Source: a virus
Reading direction: 5' to 3' (one strand)
DNA length: 23,406 bases
Virus record (IMG/VR): IMGVR_UViG_3300035216_000001
Span: 1-23,406 of that record
In this document: positions 6,767 through 17,146 of the stretch, piece after piece
Numbering within the stretch: the stretch's first letter is position 1
Layout of the letters: every line of letters begins with the position of its first letter
The notes under the pieces: model-generated
What the model was told of the DNA's origin: nothing
The model's input: only the letters and a program-made list of their open reading frames with translations
The model's database searches: none
Made by a program: the position numbers and the translations under genes

Positions 6767-6774
6767 TATAAATA
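6767..6774 (+). promoter_or_regulatory. T4-type late promoter before gp20
   Basis: An exact TATAAATA, the gp55-dependent late promoter element. If spaced as in T4 (element at about -13 to -6), transcription would start near 6780, inside the loop-side end of the hairpin at 6768-6799. This gives a leader of about 25 bases before the gp20 ATG. Confidence 0.7.
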
Positions 6775-6799
6775 CTAGGAGACAAATCCTAGTATTTAT
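6768..6799 (+). terminator. 13-bp perfect hairpin between gp19 and gp20, overlapping the late promoter
   Basis: ATAAATACTAGGA (6768-6780), a 6-base loop gacaaa, then TCCTAGTATTTAT (6787-6799): 13 perfect pairs. It is AT-rich with only two T's after the stem, so it is a weak intrinsic terminator at best. It may instead be a processing or translation-control structure. The stem contains the only Shine-Dalgarno-like string near gp20 (AGGAG, 6777-6781), which is 23 bases from the ATG. Confidence 0.6.
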
Positions 6800-9661: not shown

Positions 9662-9673
9662 TATAAATAAATA
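9662..9673 (+). promoter_or_regulatory. Tandem late-promoter motifs before gp22
   Basis: TATAAATA (9662-9669) and AATAAATA (9666-9673) overlap by four bases in the 65-base gap after gp21. With T4 spacing from the first, transcription would begin near 9675, 33 bases before the gp22 ATG, which has GGAG at 9694-9697. Confidence 0.6.
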
Positions 9674-9707
9674 TAGATTAAATACGGTTAATCGGAGTAG
9701 TTCAACA

Positions 9708-10781
9708 ATGTCTCGTGGAGATTTACAAGAAATGGAGCAATCTAAAACTGCTGTGAATGCGAACGCTAAACCTGCTGAGTCAATGCCTAAGTTGACTGAT
9801 CCAGGTACACAGCTCGGTAGTGTAGAAGATCTCGGTGGTCCAACCCCTGAGAACTACAAACCTGATGATGATTCGGCAAAGCTCAGAGAGCCTAAGATCG
9901 CAACTGTCAAGGATGTGGTTAACAGAGGTGCTAAAGCCGCAGATCAAATGAAGAAAATGGCCAAAGAAGAAGCTGAAGCTTCCGAAGAGGAAGTTGTAGC
10001 TGAGGCCGAGACTACCGAAGAGGAAGTCGTTTCTGAAGAGGAAACCAAAGAAGAGTATAACGTCGATGAAGATGTTAACGCTCTCCTTGGTGGTGAAGAA
10101 CTCTCCGAAGAATTCAGAGAAAAGGCTAAGATCGTTTTCGAAGCCGCACTTAATTCAAAAGTAAAAGAAATTCAAGAAACTCTCGAAGTTCAATACTCCG
10201 AGAAACTTGAAGAGGAGAAAGAAGGTCTTAAGGACGTTCTTACTGAAAGAGTCGATGCCTATCTTGAGTATGTCTGCGAAGAGTGGATTACCGAGAATGA
10301 ATTGGCTGTCGAACAAGGTCTTAAGACCGAAATGACCGAATCATTCCTTTCTGGAATGAAGGGTCTTTTTGAAGAACATTATGTAACAATCCCTGAAGAT
10401 AAATATGATGTGCTGGAAAGCATGGTAGAAAAACTAGATGACATGGAGACCAAGCTCAATGAGCAAATTGACAAGAATATCGATCTGAACAAGAGACTCG
10501 CTGAGTCCACTGCAGGTTCGATTCTTGATCAAATCTCTGAGGGACTCGCAGAGACCCAGAAAGAGAAGCTCGCTTCACTTGCCGAAAGTATTGAGTTTGA
10601 AAGTGATACAGAATATCGTGAGAAACTGGAAACCCTGAAGGAGTCATATTTCTCCGGTAAGGCACCAGCTCCAAAAGCAGCCCAACAACAGACTCTGTCT
10701 GAGGGTGTAGATACAACCGAATCTCCTGTTACAGGAACCATGGACGCTTATCTGCGTTCCCTGGGCGCTTTTAAAAAGTGA
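9708..10781 (+). CDS. 22: Prohead scaffold core protein (gp22)
   Basis: A 357-residue protein that forms the internal scaffold on which gp23 assembles and is then digested by gp21. It is extremely Glu/Lys-rich: residues 84-137 are a strongly acidic stretch, and two heptad-like helical regions follow (about 146-180 and 233-266), as expected of a coiled-coil scaffold. Several (L/I)-x-E tripeptides, such as LAE (264-266) and ISE (276-278), could be gp21 cut sites. The C-terminal segment (PVTGTMDAYLRSLGAFKK) is the part expected to contact the capsid shell. Position between gp21 and gp23 confirms the call. T4 gp22 is 269 residues, so this one is longer, mainly in the N-terminal acidic part. Confidence 0.93.
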   Translation: MSRGDLQEMEQSKTAVNANAKPAESMPKLTDPGTQLGSVEDLGGPTPENYKPDDDSAKLREPKIATVKDVVNRGAKAADQMKKMAKEEAEASEEEVVAEAETTEEEVVSEEETKEEYNVDEDVNALLGGEELSEEFREKAKIVFEAALNSKVKEIQETLEVQYSEKLEEEKEGLKDVLTERVDAYLEYVCEEWITENELAVEQGLKTEMTESFLSGMKGLFEEHYVTIPEDKYDVLESMVEKLDDMETKLNEQIDKNIDLNKRLAESTAGSILDQISEGLAETQKEKLASLAESIEFESDTEYREKLETLKESYFSGKAPAPKAAQQQTLSEGVDTTESPVTGTMDAYLRSLGAFKK

Positions 10782-10816: not shown

Positions 10817-12241
10817 ATGTTTCAGTCCGAAAGATTGCAGGAAAAGTGGAGTCCACTTCTCGACTATGATGGTCTTGATCCAATCAAAGATTCTCATCGT
10901 AGAGCCGTAACCGCGGTCCTGCTAGAAAACCAAGAAAAATTCCTCCGTGAGGAGCAAGCATTCTCGTCAGGTATCAACCTGATGGAATCCCCCACCGTCA
11001 ACACCGACCCTGGAGCTACCGGAAACGCTGGCTTCTCTGGTAGTGCAAGTGGTACAGGTCCTGTTGCAGGTTTCGATCCCGTTCTGATCTCACTGATCAG
11101 ACGAGCAATGCCTAACCTGGTCGCTTATGACCTGGCTGGTGTTCAACCAATGAACGGTCCTACTGGACTCATCTTCGCAATGAGATCCCGTCTACAAGAT
11201 CAGAATGGTGCAGAAACGTTCTTCGACGAAGTAGATACCGCATTCTCTGGTCAGGACGCTAATTTCGATCTGACTGGTGGTATGTCCGATGTCCAAGCTG
11301 GTCTTGGTACAACCGCACAGTCTGGTAGCAACCCAGGTGTTCTGAACCCTGTTGGCACAGCCAATTCCGAAGGCTATGTCGTCGGTCAGGGTATGAAGAC
11401 CCAAGACTCTGAAGCACTGGATAGTGGCAATAACGCCTTTAACCAGATGGCTTTCTCGATTGAGAAAGTTACTGTTACAGCCAAGTCAAGAGCCCTGAAG
11501 GCCGAGTACAGCTTGGAGCTGGCACAGGACCTTAAGGCTATTCACGGTCTTAACGCTGAAGCCGAACTGGCTAACATCCTCTCAACCGAAATTTTGGCTG
11601 AGATCAACCGTGAAGTCATCAGAACTATCTACAAGGTAGCTGAACAAGGTGCTGTTTCTAACACCGCTACTTCCGGTATCTTCGACCTGGACGTTGACTC
11701 CAACGGTCGTTGGTCCGTTGAGAAGTTCAAAGGACTTCTTTTCCAAATCGAGCGTGACGCTAACGCGATCGCACAAAGAACTCGTAGAGGGAAAGGCAAC
11801 ATGGTTCTGTGTTCCGCAGACGTTGCTTCCGCACTTACGATGGCTGGTATCCTGGATTACACTCCAGCACTGAACTCCAACCTGAACGTAGATGACACCG
11901 GTAACACCTTTGCTGGTACCATCAACGGTAAGTTCAAAGTTTATATTGACCCATACGCCGCTAACCTGACCTCAGGTAATTCGTCTGGTGGTAACCAGTA
12001 TTACGTTGTTGGTTATAAGGGTTCTTCGCCTTATGACGCTGGACTATTCTATTGTCCTTACGTTCCCCTTCAAATGGTTCGTGCTGTTGGAGAGAACTCC
12101 TTCCAGCCCAAAATTGGCTTCAAGACCCGTTACGGGATTGTTGCTAACCCATTCGCCGAAGGTACTAACCCAGGTTTGGGTCGTCTTCGTGTCAACTCTA
12201 ACCGCTACTACAGACGTGTGGCTGTTAAAAACCTCATGTGA
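10817..12241 (+). CDS. 23: Major capsid protein (gp23)
   Basis: A 474-residue HK97-fold shell protein. Family blocks are visible: LISLIRRAMPNLVAYDLAGV (about 95-114) with QPMNGPTGLIFAMRSR after it, SRALKAEYSLELAQDLKAIHG (about 220-240), and the C-terminal GFKTRYGIVANPFAEG. In T4 the N-terminal 65 residues are removed by gp21 after an Ile-x-Glu type site. Here LME (55-57) or LRE (43-45) before the Gly/Ala/Ser-rich segment would serve. AAGGT (10806-10810) is 6 bases before the ATG. No good late promoter is seen in the 35-base gap before it, so it may rely on the promoters at 9662-9673. Its codons are more GC-rich than its neighbours, in keeping with high expression. A strong terminator follows. 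Confidence 0.97.
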   Translation: MFQSERLQEKWSPLLDYDGLDPIKDSHRRAVTAVLLENQEKFLREEQAFSSGINLMESPTVNTDPGATGNAGFSGSASGTGPVAGFDPVLISLIRRAMPNLVAYDLAGVQPMNGPTGLIFAMRSRLQDQNGAETFFDEVDTAFSGQDANFDLTGGMSDVQAGLGTTAQSGSNPGVLNPVGTANSEGYVVGQGMKTQDSEALDSGNNAFNQMAFSIEKVTVTAKSRALKAEYSLELAQDLKAIHGLNAEAELANILSTEILAEINREVIRTIYKVAEQGAVSNTATSGIFDLDVDSNGRWSVEKFKGLLFQIERDANAIAQRTRRGKGNMVLCSADVASALTMAGILDYTPALNSNLNVDDTGNTFAGTINGKFKVYIDPYAANLTSGNSSGGNQYYVVGYKGSSPYDAGLFYCPYVPLQMVRAVGENSFQPKIGFKTRYGIVANPFAEGTNPGLGRLRVNSNRYYRRVAVKNLM

Positions 12242-12242
12242 T

Positions 12243-12347
12243 ATGAGTGGATGTTGTGGGGCTGGATGTCCCACTTGTCCTTTCAGACCCCCATCTCGGG
12301 GGTCTTTTTTATGCCTACTGATAAATACTAAAAAAGAGTGCCGATAG
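12243..12347 (+). CDS. Cys-rich micro-ORF after gp23
   Basis: A 34-codon ORF beginning MSGCCGAGCPTCPFRPP, one base after the gp23 stop (TGAtATG) and ending directly against the gp3 ATG. The CCGxGCxxCP pattern is the kind of four-Cys knuckle found in small oxidoreductase-like or metal-binding proteins, which argues for selection. The ORF has no Shine-Dalgarno and would depend on coupling to gp23. Oddly, codons 15-23 encode the terminator hairpin, so terminated gp23 mRNA would lack a stop codon for it. It could equally be a chance frame; conservation in relatives would decide. Confidence 0.4.
   Translation: MSGCCGAGCPTCPFRPPSRGSFLCLLINTKKECR
12285..12310 (+). terminator. Strong intrinsic terminator after gp23
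   Basis: AGACCCCC (12285-12292), loop ATCTC, GGGGGTCT (12298-12305), followed at once by further T's to 12310. Eight perfect pairs, five of them G-C, with a T-run: a textbook rho-independent terminator closing the capsid transcript. Confidence 0.9.
12320..12327 (+). promoter_or_regulatory. T4-type late promoter before gp3
   Basis: GATAAATA lies 10 bases after the gp23 terminator. With T4 spacing transcription would start near 12333, and the 15-base leader would begin with AAAGAG, a usable ribosome-binding site 9 bases from the gp3 ATG. Confidence 0.55.
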
Positions 12348-12923
12348 ATGGCGACAAGAAGACCAATACAAGATCAAACTAAGAAGGCTCTTCCCTCAAG
12401 TCAACCTTCTAATAGAAACTTCCTGATACCAAATAGTTTTCAATTTTCTATCGAAAGAACTCCCACAGTTGGGTTTTTTGGTAGTATAATAAACGTACCA
12501 GGTATAACCTTGGGGGTTGTAAATCAATCCAATTATCTCAAGACTATCCCTAGACCTGGAGAGATCTTAGACTTTTCTGATCTAGAGTTAACATTCTTTG
12601 TTGATGAAGATCTTCAAAATTATCTTGAGATTGATAAATGGATGAGAGGACTGGGTTTTCCTGAATCTCTTGAGCAAATTTACAATCTTCAAAATGAAGG
12701 TGTAGGTACAGTTAGTTTGGATGTTTATTCAGATGCAACTCTTGTCATCAACAACAACCAACAAGAACCGGCTTTTAAAGTAAAATTTAAAGACATGTTC
12801 CCATACTACCTAAGTCCTCTAGAATTCAACTCTCAAGTAGGAGATGTTGAGTACCTACAAGCTAGAGTTGGTTTCAAATACCTTATATACAATATCACGC
12901 CCGGTGGTGGGCCCTGTTGCTAA
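12348..12923 (+). CDS. 3: Tail completion / sheath stabiliser protein (gp3-like)
   Basis: A 191-residue protein placed between gp23 and uvsY, the usual position of gene 3 in T4-like cyanophages. T4 gp3 (176 residues) caps the tail tube and stabilises the sheath end. The sequence shows a tube-family look: FLIPNSFQFSIE (25-36), FVDEDLQNYLEI and KWMRGLGFP (84-105), a pattern also found in tube and tube-initiator proteins (gp19/gp54-like). A related tube-type tail protein is therefore the main alternative. The C-terminus ends GGGPCC. The stop overlaps the uvsY start as TAATG. Confidence 0.65.
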   Translation: MATRRPIQDQTKKALPSSQPSNRNFLIPNSFQFSIERTPTVGFFGSIINVPGITLGVVNQSNYLKTIPRPGEILDFSDLELTFFVDEDLQNYLEIDKWMRGLGFPESLEQIYNLQNEGVGTVSLDVYSDATLVINNNQQEPAFKVKFKDMFPYYLSPLEFNSQVGDVEYLQARVGFKYLIYNITPGGGPCC

Positions 12924-13357
12924 TGATTGATTTACCTACGATTCAGAAGATGTGGGAGGAGGATTCAAAGATTGATCCTGATAACCTACACACTGAGTCA
13001 TTGAATATTCCCGTATTACATGCGAAATATTATGATCTATACAATAATCTGATTCTTTTGAGAAAGAAAGCAGAACAACAAAGAAAGAATATCCGTCATG
13101 AACGGTATGAGTACTTTGCAGGAAAGGCTGATCCTCAAGTTTACATTGATAATCCATTTCCTAAGAAGATTAGAGATAAAGATACTATGCAAAAATATCT
13201 TGACGCAGATGAAAAACTAGCAGGAATTTCATTAAAGATTGAGTATTATGATACAATGTTGAAATACATTGAAGAAATACTAAAACAAGTTACCAATAGA
13301 ACATATCAAATTAAAAATAGTATAGATTTTATGAGATTCTCTTCTGGTATGGGATAA
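12923..13357 (+). CDS. uvsY: Recombination mediator UvsY
   Basis: A 144-residue protein that loads UvsX recombinase onto gp32-coated single-stranded DNA in T4. It is highly charged and helical, MIDLPTIQKMWEEDSKID onward, with SLNIPVLHAKYYDLYNNL (about 27-44) and a basic region (RKKAEQQRKN) as in T4 UvsY (137 residues). The ATG that overlaps the gp3 stop (TAATG) is chosen over an in-frame TTG six bases upstream inside gene 3. It lies close to uvsW, as in T4. The stop codon is embedded in a late-promoter motif. Confidence 0.92.
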   Translation: MIDLPTIQKMWEEDSKIDPDNLHTESLNIPVLHAKYYDLYNNLILLRKKAEQQRKNIRHERYEYFAGKADPQVYIDNPFPKKIRDKDTMQKYLDADEKLAGISLKIEYYDTMLKYIEEILKQVTNRTYQIKNSIDFMRFSSGMG

Positions 13358-13370
13358 ATAAAATTATCCC
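13351..13370 (+). other. Hairpin around the late promoter at the uvsY stop
   Basis: GGGATAA (13351-13357), loop ATAAAA, TTATCCC (13364-13370): 7 perfect pairs. The left arm includes the uvsY stop codon and the start of the GATAAATA motif. No T-run follows, so it is not an intrinsic terminator. Confidence 0.5.
13353..13360 (+). promoter_or_regulatory. T4-type late promoter overlapping the uvsY stop
   Basis: GATAAATA contains the uvsY stop (TAA 13355-13357). With T4 spacing the transcript would begin near 13366, inside the right arm of the hairpin, and would serve the small ORF at 13418 and possibly uvsW. Confidence 0.5.
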
Positions 13371-13417
13371 CCATTCTCAAATCATTGAACGAGGAACAAG
13401 AACAGTTTGATTATACA

Positions 13418-13585
13418 ATGAATATCTCTATAAATGATGTGCGCCTAATGCATCATTGTGTTGTTGAGGCGATCAGAACATGGCCTGGTTCTCCTGCCAG
13501 ACCAGCTGAAGAACAAGAACACATGTGGCATTTAAGAGATCAATTTCAAAGAATGATGCTAGATTACTCTTTTAGAAATAGTTAA
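13418..13585 (+). CDS. Small hypothetical protein between uvsY and uvsW
   Basis: A 55-residue ORF, MNISINDVRLMHHCVVEAI onward, with a core RTWPGSPARPAEEQEHMWHL that looks like a folded helical domain. The frame opens further upstream to a TTG at 13385 (66 residues), but neither start has a clear ribosome-binding site, and the ATG is preferred because the conserved-looking part begins there. I do not recognise the family. Its stop codon overlaps the late-promoter motif of uvsW. Placement between two recombination genes suggests, but does not prove, a DNA-metabolism role. Confidence 0.6.
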   Translation: MNISINDVRLMHHCVVEAIRTWPGSPARPAEEQEHMWHLRDQFQRMMLDYSFRNS

Positions 13586-13591
13586 TAAATA
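13584..13591 (+). promoter_or_regulatory. T4-type late promoter before uvsW
   Basis: AATAAATA overlaps the preceding stop codon (TAA 13583-13585). With T4 spacing the start would be near 13597, producing a 16-base leader that begins at the AGGTGA ribosome-binding site and lacks the left arm of the hairpin. T4 uvsW is likewise expressed late. Confidence 0.6.
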
Positions 13592-13614
13592 CTTATAGGT
13601 GACCCTACAAGTAT
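13589..13614 (+). promoter_or_regulatory. Hairpin sequestering the uvsW ribosome-binding site and start codon
   Basis: ATACTTATAGG (13589-13599), loop TGAC, CCTACAAGTAT (13604-13614): 10 of 11 positions pair, with one A-C mismatch. The AGG of the Shine-Dalgarno AGGTGA (13597-13602) pairs with CCT, and the first two bases of the uvsW ATG (13613-13615) are in the right arm. Read-through mRNA would therefore hide the initiation region. Confidence 0.6.
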
Positions 13615-15076
13615 GGCTGATTTGACCATAGAGAAGGTAAACGAAGTTTACCTTAGGATCTCTACGGAACCACATATTGAATACGAACTCAGAGATAGAT
13701 TTACCTTTGAAGTTCCTAACATGAAGTTTATGCCTCAGTATAGAAGGAGGCATTGGAACGGAGAAATTCATTTGTTCGATACTAGAACAAAGAGAATCTA
13801 TGTAGGACTTCTTGATAAAGTTATTGCATTCTGTGAAAAATCTGAATATAGCTTTGAATTTGTAAATAATAAATTCTATGGACTTCCTTTTGAAGTCAAT
13901 GAAATGATCTGCAAAGAAGGTGTCAAAGACTTTATGGCATCTATTGCATCATTGAAACCAAGGGACTATCAGATAGATGCTGTTCATGATGCCCTAAGAT
14001 ATAATCGGAAGTTATTAATCAGCCCAACTGCATCAGGTAAGTCATTCATGATTTACTCTGTAGTAAGATTCCATGTTGGTCTGAAGAGAAAGGTTCTACT
14101 TGTAGTCCCCACCACATCACTTGTGGAACAGATGTTTAAAGATTTCCAGGACTATGGGTGGGATGCCGAGAATCACTGCCACAGGATCTATGCAGGTCGT
14201 GAGAGGGTCAACACTAATGAAGTAACCATCACTACCTGGCAGTCAGTTTATCAACTGGATAGAGTATTCTTTGAAGAGTATGATGTTATTATTGGCGACG
14301 AAGCTCATCTGTTTAAGAGTAAGTCACTTATAGGGATTATGGACAAGTGCCATCATGCTAAGTATAGATATGGGTTTACTGGCACTTTAGACGGGACACA
14401 GACCCATAAGTGGGTCTTAGAGGGATTATTTGGTCCGTCATACAAGGTAACAGGAACTAAGAAACTAATTGATGAGGGTTACCTAGCTAAACTTGATATT
14501 CAGTGTCTTGTTCTGAAACATAGTCCTCAAAAATTCGATACATATGAGGATGAAATCAAGTATCTCATATCCCATGAGAATAGAAACAAATTCATATCAA
14601 ATCTGTCAGTTGATTTGAAGGGTAATACCTTGGTTCTTTATACGAGAGTTGAGACGCATGGTGCCATACTTTATGACTTAATAAATAGCAAAGTATCAGA
14701 CGGTAGAAAGGTCTTCTTCATCCATGGGGGTGTGGATGCGGAGTCCAGAGAACAAGTTAGAAAGATTACAGAGGAAGAGAAAGACGCTATTATCGTTGCC
14801 TCCTTTGGAACTTTCAGTACAGGTATCAACATCAAAAACCTTCACAACGTAATATTTGCCTCTCCATCAAAGTCTCGTATTCGGAACTTGCAGTCTATTG
14901 GTAGAGTCCTAAGAAAAGGCAAAGACAAAGTGAAAGCTAAACTCTATGATATTGCAGATGATGCAACCATGGGGTCAAGGAAGAACTATACTTTGAATCA
15001 TTTTATTGAAAGAGTGAAAATATATGTTCAAGAACAATTCAATTATGAGATTATACCAATTAATTTAAAAGATTAG
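13613..15076 (+). CDS. uvsW: UvsW RNA-DNA and recombination helicase
   Basis: A 487-residue superfamily 2 helicase. In T4 UvsW unwinds R-loops and branched DNA, helping the switch from origin-dependent to recombination-dependent replication. Motifs in order: Walker A ISPTASGKS (136-144), GDEAH (228-232, motif II), FTGTLD (255-260, motif III), and QSIGRVLRKGK (427-437, motif VI with the arginine finger). The N-terminal domain has PQYRRRHWNGEIHLF (41-55), as in T4 UvsW. T4 UvsW is 503 residues, so this is full length. AGGTGA lies 10 bases before the ATG. The upstream hairpin probably controls translation. Confidence 0.96.
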   Translation: MADLTIEKVNEVYLRISTEPHIEYELRDRFTFEVPNMKFMPQYRRRHWNGEIHLFDTRTKRIYVGLLDKVIAFCEKSEYSFEFVNNKFYGLPFEVNEMICKEGVKDFMASIASLKPRDYQIDAVHDALRYNRKLLISPTASGKSFMIYSVVRFHVGLKRKVLLVVPTTSLVEQMFKDFQDYGWDAENHCHRIYAGRERVNTNEVTITTWQSVYQLDRVFFEEYDVIIGDEAHLFKSKSLIGIMDKCHHAKYRYGFTGTLDGTQTHKWVLEGLFGPSYKVTGTKKLIDEGYLAKLDIQCLVLKHSPQKFDTYEDEIKYLISHENRNKFISNLSVDLKGNTLVLYTRVETHGAILYDLINSKVSDGRKVFFIHGGVDAESREQVRKITEEEKDAIIVASFGTFSTGINIKNLHNVIFASPSKSRIRNLQSIGRVLRKGKDKVKAKLYDIADDATMGSRKNYTLNHFIERVKIYVQEQFNYEIIPINLKD

Positions 15077-15091
15077 AAAAGGAGAGTGTCT

Positions 15092-15487
15092 ATGGACATG
15101 GAGATACAAGATGATTTTTATGCTACAATCAAATTAAGATCTGGTGATGAAATATTTACTAAGGTAGCTGCTATGGAAGAAGATGACAGGACACTGTTGC
15201 TTCTTTCTAATCCAATTATCGTTGAAGAAATTATTCATAGAGGTAAGTTTCAAGGTTATAAAATGGAACCTTGGTTAAAGACCGCTAGTGATGATATGTT
15301 TATTATAAATATGGATCAGGTCATTACTATGTCTGAATCAGACAGTGTTGAGATGATTATATATTATCAAGATTATGTTCGTAAGCTTAATCAAACGAAT
15401 AACATAAAGTTAGATAGAAAAATGGGATTCTTATCTACAGTACATGAAGCTAAAGAGGTTTTGGAAAAACTCTATAATAAGAGCTAA
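15092..15487 (+). CDS. Small protein with an Sm-like beta-barrel pattern
   Basis: A 131-residue ORF. AAAGGAGAG (15078-15086) lies 5 bases before the ATG at 15092, so this start is chosen over a GTG at 15086 that falls within the ribosome-binding site. The N-terminal 75 residues follow an Sm/LSm pattern: FYATIKLRSGDEIFTKV, a charged turn (EEDD), LLLLSNPIIV, then EPWL, FIINMDQVITM. Sm-fold proteins bind RNA as rings (Hfq is the bacterial example), but the fold here is inferred from the pattern only. The C-terminal 45 residues look helical. It sits between uvsW and the promoter of gene 55. Confidence 0.65.
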   Translation: MDMEIQDDFYATIKLRSGDEIFTKVAAMEEDDRTLLLLSNPIIVEEIIHRGKFQGYKMEPWLKTASDDMFIINMDQVITMSESDSVEMIIYYQDYVRKLNQTNNIKLDRKMGFLSTVHEAKEVLEKLYNKS

Positions 15488-15535
15488 GGTTCCCTTTCAT
15501 CCTGGACAAACCTATTCTATTGTTAATTCAAGGTA

Positions 15536-15564
15536 TTGTCAACCTCTTATGAAAGTGGTATAAT
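15536..15564 (+). promoter_or_regulatory. Near-consensus sigma-70 promoter before gene 55
   Basis: The -35 box TTGTCA (15536-15541, 5 of 6 matches) is separated by 17 bases from a perfect -10 box TATAAT (15559-15564) with an extended -10 TGG (15556-15558). Transcription would begin near 15571, 17 bases before the first ATG of gene 55. It lies in a 100-base gap with no coding sequence, and should drive 55-47-46 early with host RNA polymerase. Confidence 0.75.
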
Positions 15565-15587
15565 AATATGAGTAATAATTATCGTTT

Positions 15588-16094
15588 ATGGCTGTCAATC
15601 ACAATTATGGAACTATGGCAAGACCTAAGAAATCTGAACACTATGTAAATAACAAAGAGTTTCTCAACGCACTTGAGAATTACTTTGCTGAGGTTGAACG
15701 AGCTAAACTCAATGATAAGCCCAAACCTAGGATTCCCAGATATATTGGTGAGTGTTTTTTGAAAATTGCTAATCATCTATCATATAAACCAAACTTCGTG
15801 AACTACATGTTCAAGGATGATATGATCTGTGATGGTATCGAGAATTGTGTAAGGTACGTTCATAACTTTAATCCTGAGAAATCCAAGAACCCATTTGCTT
15901 ATTTTACTCAGATTATCTATTATGCATTCTTGAGAAGGATTCAACAAGAGAAGAAACAACTTGAGATTAAGAACAAGATTTTAGAGAAAACTAACTTCGA
16001 TGAGGTCTTTGATGCCAACGAGCTTGACAGTGGTAACTATTCCGACTACAATTCCATCAAGGACGCAGTCCACATCAAACTTCGTAATCAATGA
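15588..16094 (+). CDS. 55: Late-transcription sigma factor (gp55)
   Basis: A 168-residue divergent sigma factor that lets RNA polymerase recognise TATAAATA late promoters. HYVNNKEFLNALENYFAEVE (about 18-37), ADGIE/CDGIENCVRYVHNF (about 83-97) and NPFAYFTQIIYYAFLRRIQQ (about 104-123) align well with T4 gp55 (185 residues), covering the sigma region 2-like part. Two starts are possible, 15588 and 15615 (MARPKKSEHYV, 159 residues); neither has a clear ribosome-binding site, and the second is nearer the T4 N-terminus. Its stop overlaps the gp47 start as ATGA. A sigma-70 promoter lies upstream. Confidence 0.93.
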   Translation: MAVNHNYGTMARPKKSEHYVNNKEFLNALENYFAEVERAKLNDKPKPRIPRYIGECFLKIANHLSYKPNFVNYMFKDDMICDGIENCVRYVHNFNPEKSKNPFAYFTQIIYYAFLRRIQQEKKQLEIKNKILEKTNFDEVFDANELDSGNYSDYNSIKDAVHIKLRNQ

Positions 16095-17146
16095 CAAAAG
16101 TAGCAGTAATCACTGATACTCACTATGGTGCAAGAAAGGGTTCTAAACTCTTCCATGATTACTTTGAGAAATTCTATCGTGATGTATTCTTCCCTACCCT
16201 AAAGAAAGAGGGTATCGATACCGTTCTCCACCTTGGGGATGCGTTTGACAGTCGTAGGGGAATTGAGTTCCAAACTCTCCAGTGGGCAAAAAGAGTGGTA
16301 TTTGACCCTCTCAAGGAGATGGGAGCAAAGATGCACCTGATTGTGGGCAATCATGATGCCTACTATAAGAATAGTAATAAAATTAACTCTATTGAACTTC
16401 TTCTCACGGAGTATGACAATATAACAAAATACTCTAAAGCTACTGAAGTCAATATTGAGGGATTAGACATCCTTTTTATACCCTGGATCTGTGAGGAAAA
16501 TGAGAAAGAAACTTATAACCTTATTAAAAAGACAACTTGCCCGTTCGCGATGGGGCACCTTGAGCTCAATGGATTTAGAGTTAATCGACAGATCGTCATG
16601 GACCATGGTAATGAGGGCGAGTTATATTCAAAGTTCTCCAAGGTCTTCACGGGGCACTATCATACTCGATCAGATGACGGAACAGTCTACTACATCGGTA
16701 ATCCTTACGAGATGTTCTGGACGGATGTCGGAGATGATCGTGGATTTACGATACTGGATGTGGAAACTCTTGAACACACGTATGTAAATAATCCATATCA
16801 GTTATTTCATAACATTTACTATGATGATACCAACTATCAGATGTTTGATACAACTCCTTATACAGGTAAGATTGTAAAGGTAATTGTCAAACAAAAATCA
16901 GATATCAAACAGTTTGAAAAATTTATTGACAAACTGTATGTCTCTGGTATTGCTGACCTGAAAATCGTTGAGAACTTTGAATTTGGTGGGTGGTATAACG
17001 AAAAAGATAATGTTGAAGGAATTGATACAGAAGATACTCTTTCTATTCTGAATAGATATATTGAGGAGTCTGAATCAAGTCTTGATAAATCTAAAATTCA
17101 AAAAGTAATTAGGGATGTATATCAGGAAGCGTGTGAACTAGTATAA
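16091..17146 (+). CDS. 47: Recombination nuclease subunit gp47 (SbcD/Mre11-like)
   Basis: A 351-residue metallophosphoesterase that pairs with gp46 to resect DNA ends for recombination. The metal-binding motifs are complete: DTHYG (D9, H11), GDAFDSRRG (D50), GNHDA (N87, H88), GHLE (H156) and GHYH (H189, H191). Length matches T4 gp47 (339). It overlaps gp55 by four bases (ATGA), and its own stop overlaps the next start (TAATG), so the series is translationally coupled. Confidence 0.96.
   Translation: MTKVAVITDTHYGARKGSKLFHDYFEKFYRDVFFPTLKKEGIDTVLHLGDAFDSRRGIEFQTLQWAKRVVFDPLKEMGAKMHLIVGNHDAYYKNSNKINSIELLLTEYDNITKYSKATEVNIEGLDILFIPWICEENEKETYNLIKKTTCPFAMGHLELNGFRVNRQIVMDHGNEGELYSKFSKVFTGHYHTRSDDGTVYYIGNPYEMFWTDVGDDRGFTILDVETLEHTYVNNPYQLFHNIYYDDTNYQMFDTTPYTGKIVKVIVKQKSDIKQFEKFIDKLYVSGIADLKIVENFEFGGWYNEKDNVEGIDTEDTLSILNRYIEESESSLDKSKIQKVIRDVYQEACELV

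Follow-up and report, generated by a model that had tools for sequence, protein, structure and literature searches.

The stretch of DNA analysed (the window, 23,406 nucleotides) is T4-like cyanophage DNA, in which genes 20, 22, 23 and 3, uvsY, an ORF of 66 amino acids, uvsW, a gene for an Sm-like protein, and genes 55, 47 and 46 all lie in one direction, an order that agrees with that of annotated relatives. The junction between the small ORF and uvsW reads AATAAATA-CTTAT-AGGTGACCCTACAAGT-ATG and begins with a T4-type late promoter box (Table 1). RNAfold predicts a hairpin here in which 13589-13594 pairs with 13609-13614 and 13596-13599 with 13604-13607, which makes 10 of 11 positions paired and leaves a single A·C mismatch, 13595 against 13608. 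The AGG of the uvsW Shine-Dalgarno sequence pairs with the CCU just 3' of it, and the AU of the AUG, the only part of the start codon that falls in the right arm, is paired as well, so both elements are sequestered in the predicted fold, as in a T4-type switch. The first-pass annotation had this AGG and the first bases of the ATG pairing with an upstream arm at 10 of 11 positions; its coordinates and pair count hold, but the AGG sits in the left arm itself and the right arm contains only the AU of the start codon. The overlap that it described between the late promoter and the upstream arm is present: the box shares 13589-13591 with the left arm, again as in T4-type switches, and the same placement is found in relatives.

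Table 1. Features of the uvsW start region and its upstream genes in the window.
Feature	Position	Strand	Basis
uvsY, co-directional, upstream of uvsW	12923..13357	+	Pfam UvsY 8e-42
Small co-directional gene, 66 aa, phrog_628; stop codon overlaps promoter by two bases	13385..13585	+	ORF, PHROG
T4-type late promoter box AATAAATA	13584..13591	+	Sequence
Hairpin left arm	13589..13599	+	Fold and covariation
Promoter bases -5 to -1, CTTAT; part of left arm absent from predicted late transcript	13592..13596	+	T4 boxes at -13 to -6 (PMC1524935); covariation concentrated here
Predicted late transcription start (+1)	13597	+	T4 spacing rule; A in 98/105 relatives' spacers
Shine-Dalgarno-like AGGTGA of uvsW, AGG in left arm	13597..13602	+	Sequence, RNAfold
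Hairpin loop UGAC	13600..13603	+	Fold
Hairpin right arm, reaching AU of AUG	13604..13614	+	Fold and covariation
uvsW, DNA/RNA helicase, 487 aa; ATG 13613-13615	13613..15076	+	ORF; Pfam UvsW_N 8e-12 and helicase domains; PHROG DNA helicase

The folding energy of the window hairpin is -8.0 kcal/mol (z -2.8), and 3 of 200 shuffled sequences are equally stable. The signal from the window sequence alone is thus modest, and it is the comparative data that put the hairpin far beyond chance. An Rfam search of 12200-14000 gave no match at E values up to 1, which places the hairpin outside the known RNA families.

Starts of uvsW were gathered from protein-similarity searches of viral contigs, from a DNA pattern search and from named phages, giving 303 starts; these represent 176 distinct contexts and, between box and ATG, 105 distinct spacers. 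Three or more of the promoter bases from -5 to -1 pair with downstream sequence, usually the bases ahead of the ATG, in 79 of these 105 spacers. Among the 232 locus entries found by protein similarity alone, which come from three sets with some contigs present in more than one, 230 have an NTAAATA box no more than 26 nt from the uvsW start and 172 have the hairpin. The pattern scan of viral contigs for AGGTGA with a late box gave 58 matches placed as uvsW by position and at least three more that are uvsW-like; as a general motif the combination was rejected, the non-uvsW matches being scattered and mostly at unrelated genes.

The arms differ widely in sequence, as in the spacers (promoter bases before the vertical break, here a slash) CCTAT/AGGTGAAACCTATAGGTT, CCCAT/AGGTGAAACTTATGGGTT, TGTGT/AGGTGAAATCCTACATGA and TCTTC/AAGTGAAGATATATT, and in ATAGT/AACTGAAAAGTTACATC, which has no Shine-Dalgarno sequence. 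The P-SSM2 clade, with the spacer ATCCT/ACATTGGTATAGGATT, represents a second design (ATCCT/A...TAGGATT-ATG), in which the arms are unrelated, the geometry is the same and the AGG lies in the right arm instead. Invariant across lineages are a left arm that includes the promoter bases left untranscribed and a right arm that adjoins the AUG or, where the stem is shorter, ends a few bases short of it. Class I has a long distance between Shine-Dalgarno sequence and AUG, and in several members the Shine-Dalgarno sequence is absent. Since the geometry is kept even where this sequence is lost or lies on the other arm, it is the start region that is guarded and not the Shine-Dalgarno sequence as such.

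The hairpin is genuine and evolutionarily maintained. Compensatory changes between the arms, which the first-pass annotation had named beforehand as the sign to look for in relatives and whose absence was to count against its reading, are frequent, and exchange of left arms between phages destabilizes the structure, from -6.53 for native arms to -3.37 (sd 0.17) for swapped ones, with none of 200 swaps matching the native value. Within the AGGTGA class the corresponding values are -8.98 and -5.57 (0 of 500). Covariation was also scored on 36 distinct arm pairs after alignment: the observed value is 0.387, shuffles give 0.200 (0 of 500 as high), and slid partners never exceed 0.107. Each row was set in the register with maximal pairing and the loop was cut to TGA, a set-up that favours structure, so the arm-swap test is the cleaner of the two. 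On a tree of the uvsW gene from 42 phages, 18 double changes fall at pairs of the bases -5 to -1, where covariation is concentrated, and 7 of 48 events break a pair. Other late-box/ATG junctions of the same contigs served as control (n=143): a fold of -5 kcal/mol or better with promoter bases paired occurs in 1.4% of them and in 58% at uvsW. A general property of late promoters was rejected on these control junctions, and gene 20 and one clade at gene 22 are the main exceptions.

The T4 late box occupies positions -13 to -6 (PMC1524935), a spacing that would put +1 at 13597, a position where A is almost always found (Table 1), and leave 13589-13596 outside the late RNA. An RNA with this predicted start would drop 7 of the 10 hairpin pairs and would retain the AGG, which lies in the left arm at 13597-13599. 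Computed late RNA is weakly folded whichever start is taken from 4 to 7 nt past the box. In the spacer analysis, mean fold energy is -6.5 kcal/mol with the promoter bases and -1.25 kcal/mol for the predicted late RNA. The comparison of both RNAs by computational folding, which the first-pass annotation had suggested, gives the same picture in the -60 to +60 context (120 nt): across the hairpin set, 11.1 kcal/mol is needed to open the start region of read-through RNA and 4.5 kcal/mol to open that of late RNA, the cost is lower in late RNA for 62 of 63 members, and the window values are 9.8 and 3.4 kcal/mol. The compensating bases lie 5' of the predicted start of the late RNA, which therefore cannot select them, and this makes the evolutionary evidence unusually clear.

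Read-through RNA would come from the co-directional genes upstream, and a terminator scan of 12200-16200 found none between these genes and uvsW. Of 172 relatives, 120 have a sigma-70-like site just 5' of uvsY; synonymous codon shuffling predicts 28. Its form is mostly TTKACA-N18-TATNNT (TTGACA or TTTACA), it is most often found inside the end of gene 3, and the TTGACA at Leu-Thr in this gene end is used far above the prediction from codon usage. A non-late promoter upstream of uvsY is thus likely in the group from these sequence comparisons, and it could supply the read-through RNA. The site is present in RN05-S and poor in the window, where the best match is 9/12. The relatives' site lies mostly within coding sequence, and its equivalent in the window is at about 12850-12900. 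Gene 3, further upstream, has its own late promoter (box 12320-12327), and RNA from this promoter would be silenced by the uvsW hairpin too. With a poor sigma-70-like site and a late promoter at gene 3, early read-through can only be conjectured for the window phage.

An inverted repeat that overlaps a promoter could also act at the level of double-stranded DNA, where a protein that controls late transcription of uvsW would bind it as a dyad operator or promoter element, and gene 20 likewise has a palindrome after its late box, in this case with no excess of G·T mismatches (1 G·T and 5 A·C). At uvsW, however, arm sequences vary widely and stay paired, which a sequence-specific protein would not tolerate, and the loop length is variable. 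Mismatches in strand-neutral helices of distinct arms are G·T in 25 cases and A·C in 4 (binomial P about 5e-5, one-sided, for related sequences that are not fully independent), an excess that fits selection on + strand RNA and not on DNA, so a role as a DNA element is unlikely. Termination of the upstream RNA just 5' of uvsW seems to be the solution of one lineage, S-CAM7, which has at the same place a long stem over the late box and eight T. The uvsW hairpin, though, is not a G+C-rich stem with a U-run: at least five T within the next eight bases are found in only 3 of 74 hairpins, GGCTGATT comes after the stem in the window, and nothing at 13589-13625 was picked up by the terminator scan, which makes a terminator very unlikely.

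The hairpin could also be a site of RNA processing or of protein binding, with the Sm-like protein from the gene after uvsW (Pfam 1e-8) as a conceivable partner, and affect RNA stability or translation by other means than simple occlusion. Loop and arm sequences are unconserved across lineages, where only the pairing and the position relative to +1 and AUG are kept, and nothing links the Sm-like protein to the hairpin; such a site is highly improbable. Chance complementarity in AT-rich sequence, which the single-sequence z-score of only -2.8 might allow, is scarcely credible, since the arm-swap, slide, shuffle, control-promoter and tree tests all give results beyond chance.

The reading of the first-pass annotation, a hairpin by-passed by the late promoter, is therefore supported by the covariation, the loss of stability on swapping, the control genes that lack the hairpin and the mismatch bias of the + strand. 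It is quite likely that the uvsW start works as an RNA switch set by promoter position, in which the hairpin forms in read-through RNA, is missing from late promoter RNA, and makes UvsW a late protein. RNA that enters from uvsY and the small ORF would carry the bases between the late box and the start point, which would pair with the stretch before the AUG and block ribosome loading, so that little UvsW would be made. Transcription of the gp55-dependent late type would begin inside the left arm, at or near 13597, and the resulting RNA, which would lack most of this arm, would be translated. On this reading the appearance of UvsW would await the switch to late transcription, a stage at which it could unwind origin R-loops and favour recombination-dependent replication, as it does in T4. 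The hairpin probably delays UvsW until late infection in many marine cyanobacterial viruses.

Hairpins by-passed by a late promoter are documented for T4 genes e, soc and 49 and for I-TevI (PMC3014915, PMC2988022), and the uvsW start apparently has this arrangement, with strong covariation, at a gene and in a phage group that are both new to it. In the open-access papers searched, a hairpin of this kind is described neither for uvsW nor for any cyanophage, which is weak evidence of novelty. In the leader of T4 gene e, the lysozyme gene, a hairpin likewise sequesters the start, its 5' strand contains the late promoter or promoters, and late RNA lacks this strand (PMC3014915). This leader belongs to a different gene and host group, its translation was measured where the effect at uvsW is predicted, and uvsW, in which some members have no Shine-Dalgarno sequence, would lose about five promoter bases and part of the box. 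The hairpins of I-TevI, mobE and segB also concern late genes within a unit transcribed earlier, with a ribosome-binding-site hairpin that the late promoter by-passes (PMC2988022), but these genes encode selfish homing endonucleases, whereas UvsW is a core helicase of replication and recombination. The split Shine-Dalgarno hairpins of T4 genes 25 and 38 (PMC3014915) likewise lie between promoter and AUG; theirs stand between the Shine-Dalgarno sequence and the AUG and aid translation, whereas at uvsW the AGG is in the stem, unlike in a split-site enhancer. The orthologous uvsW of T4 is transcribed from a late promoter, and its product unwinds origin R-loops (PMC3016281). In the T-even Shigella phage CM8, by contrast, the gene before uvsW points the other way, so that no co-directional read-through is expected, and the structure predicted at its AUG is weak (-2.1 kcal/mol). 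With the uvsW start, a T4 device seen chiefly at lysis, capsid and homing-endonuclease genes would reach a core replication and recombination helicase of abundant marine phages. It also yields a hypothesis, open to testing, on how cyanophages set the moment of passage from origin-dependent to recombination-dependent replication.

The arrangement is restricted to certain lineages and not universal in cyanophages. About a quarter of the relatives that have the promoter lack such a hairpin; the box occurs without this stem in S-SM2, Bellamy and some contigs. Where uvsW overlaps the upstream gene, as in S-ShM2, S-CAM4, P-TIM68, S-SCSM1 and S-CAM9, neither box nor hairpin is found, and the S-ShM2 type includes many cyanophage isolates. 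A sigma-70-like site precedes uvsY in P-TIM68 despite the absence of a uvsW promoter or hairpin, and phages with such an overlap argue that late-only UvsW is not a general need, which suggests that its timing is important in some lineages and not in others. A wider reading is tentative and somewhat doubtful: cyanophages may have repeatedly built RNA locks with unrelated arms, mainly from the five untranscribed bases between box and start, that keep UvsW silent until late, while in other lineages the promoter may have come to lie under a terminator (S-CAM7) or the control may have been given up through overlap of uvsW with the upstream gene.

Two further structures lie before uvsW in named phages. 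ACG-2014f (L371) has a strong TAATAGG/CCTATTA stem before uvsW at 344, with no recognisable late box, and in S-CAM7 (L373) the long terminator-like stem that encloses the late box, followed by eight T, lies upstream of uvsW at 347.

Inverted repeats are also found at other genes of the window. At gene 20, which encodes the portal, the region 6767-6799 has a late box and, immediately after it, the inverted repeat ATAAATACTAGGA-GACAAA-TCCTAGTATTTAT. A comparable stem is present in 32 of 51 distinct relatives and usually ends 6-11 nt before the ATG; swapped arms are less stable, and with no G·T excess this repeat may act differently, perhaps in DNA. The gene 22 starts of one clade (L113, L199, L092, L100, L177) have TAGATT...AATCTA directly after the late box, and gene 22 of the window has GATTAA-ATACGG-TTAATC before GGAG, at 9662-9710. 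The gene after uvsW, at 15086-15487, is usually annotated as 'methylamine utilization', and its Sm_like match (Pfam 1e-8) makes it a possible phage RNA-binding protein. Just upstream of the small ORF, at 13351-13370, the inverted repeat GGGATAA-ATAAAA-TTATCCC contains an ATAAATA and the uvsY stop codon.
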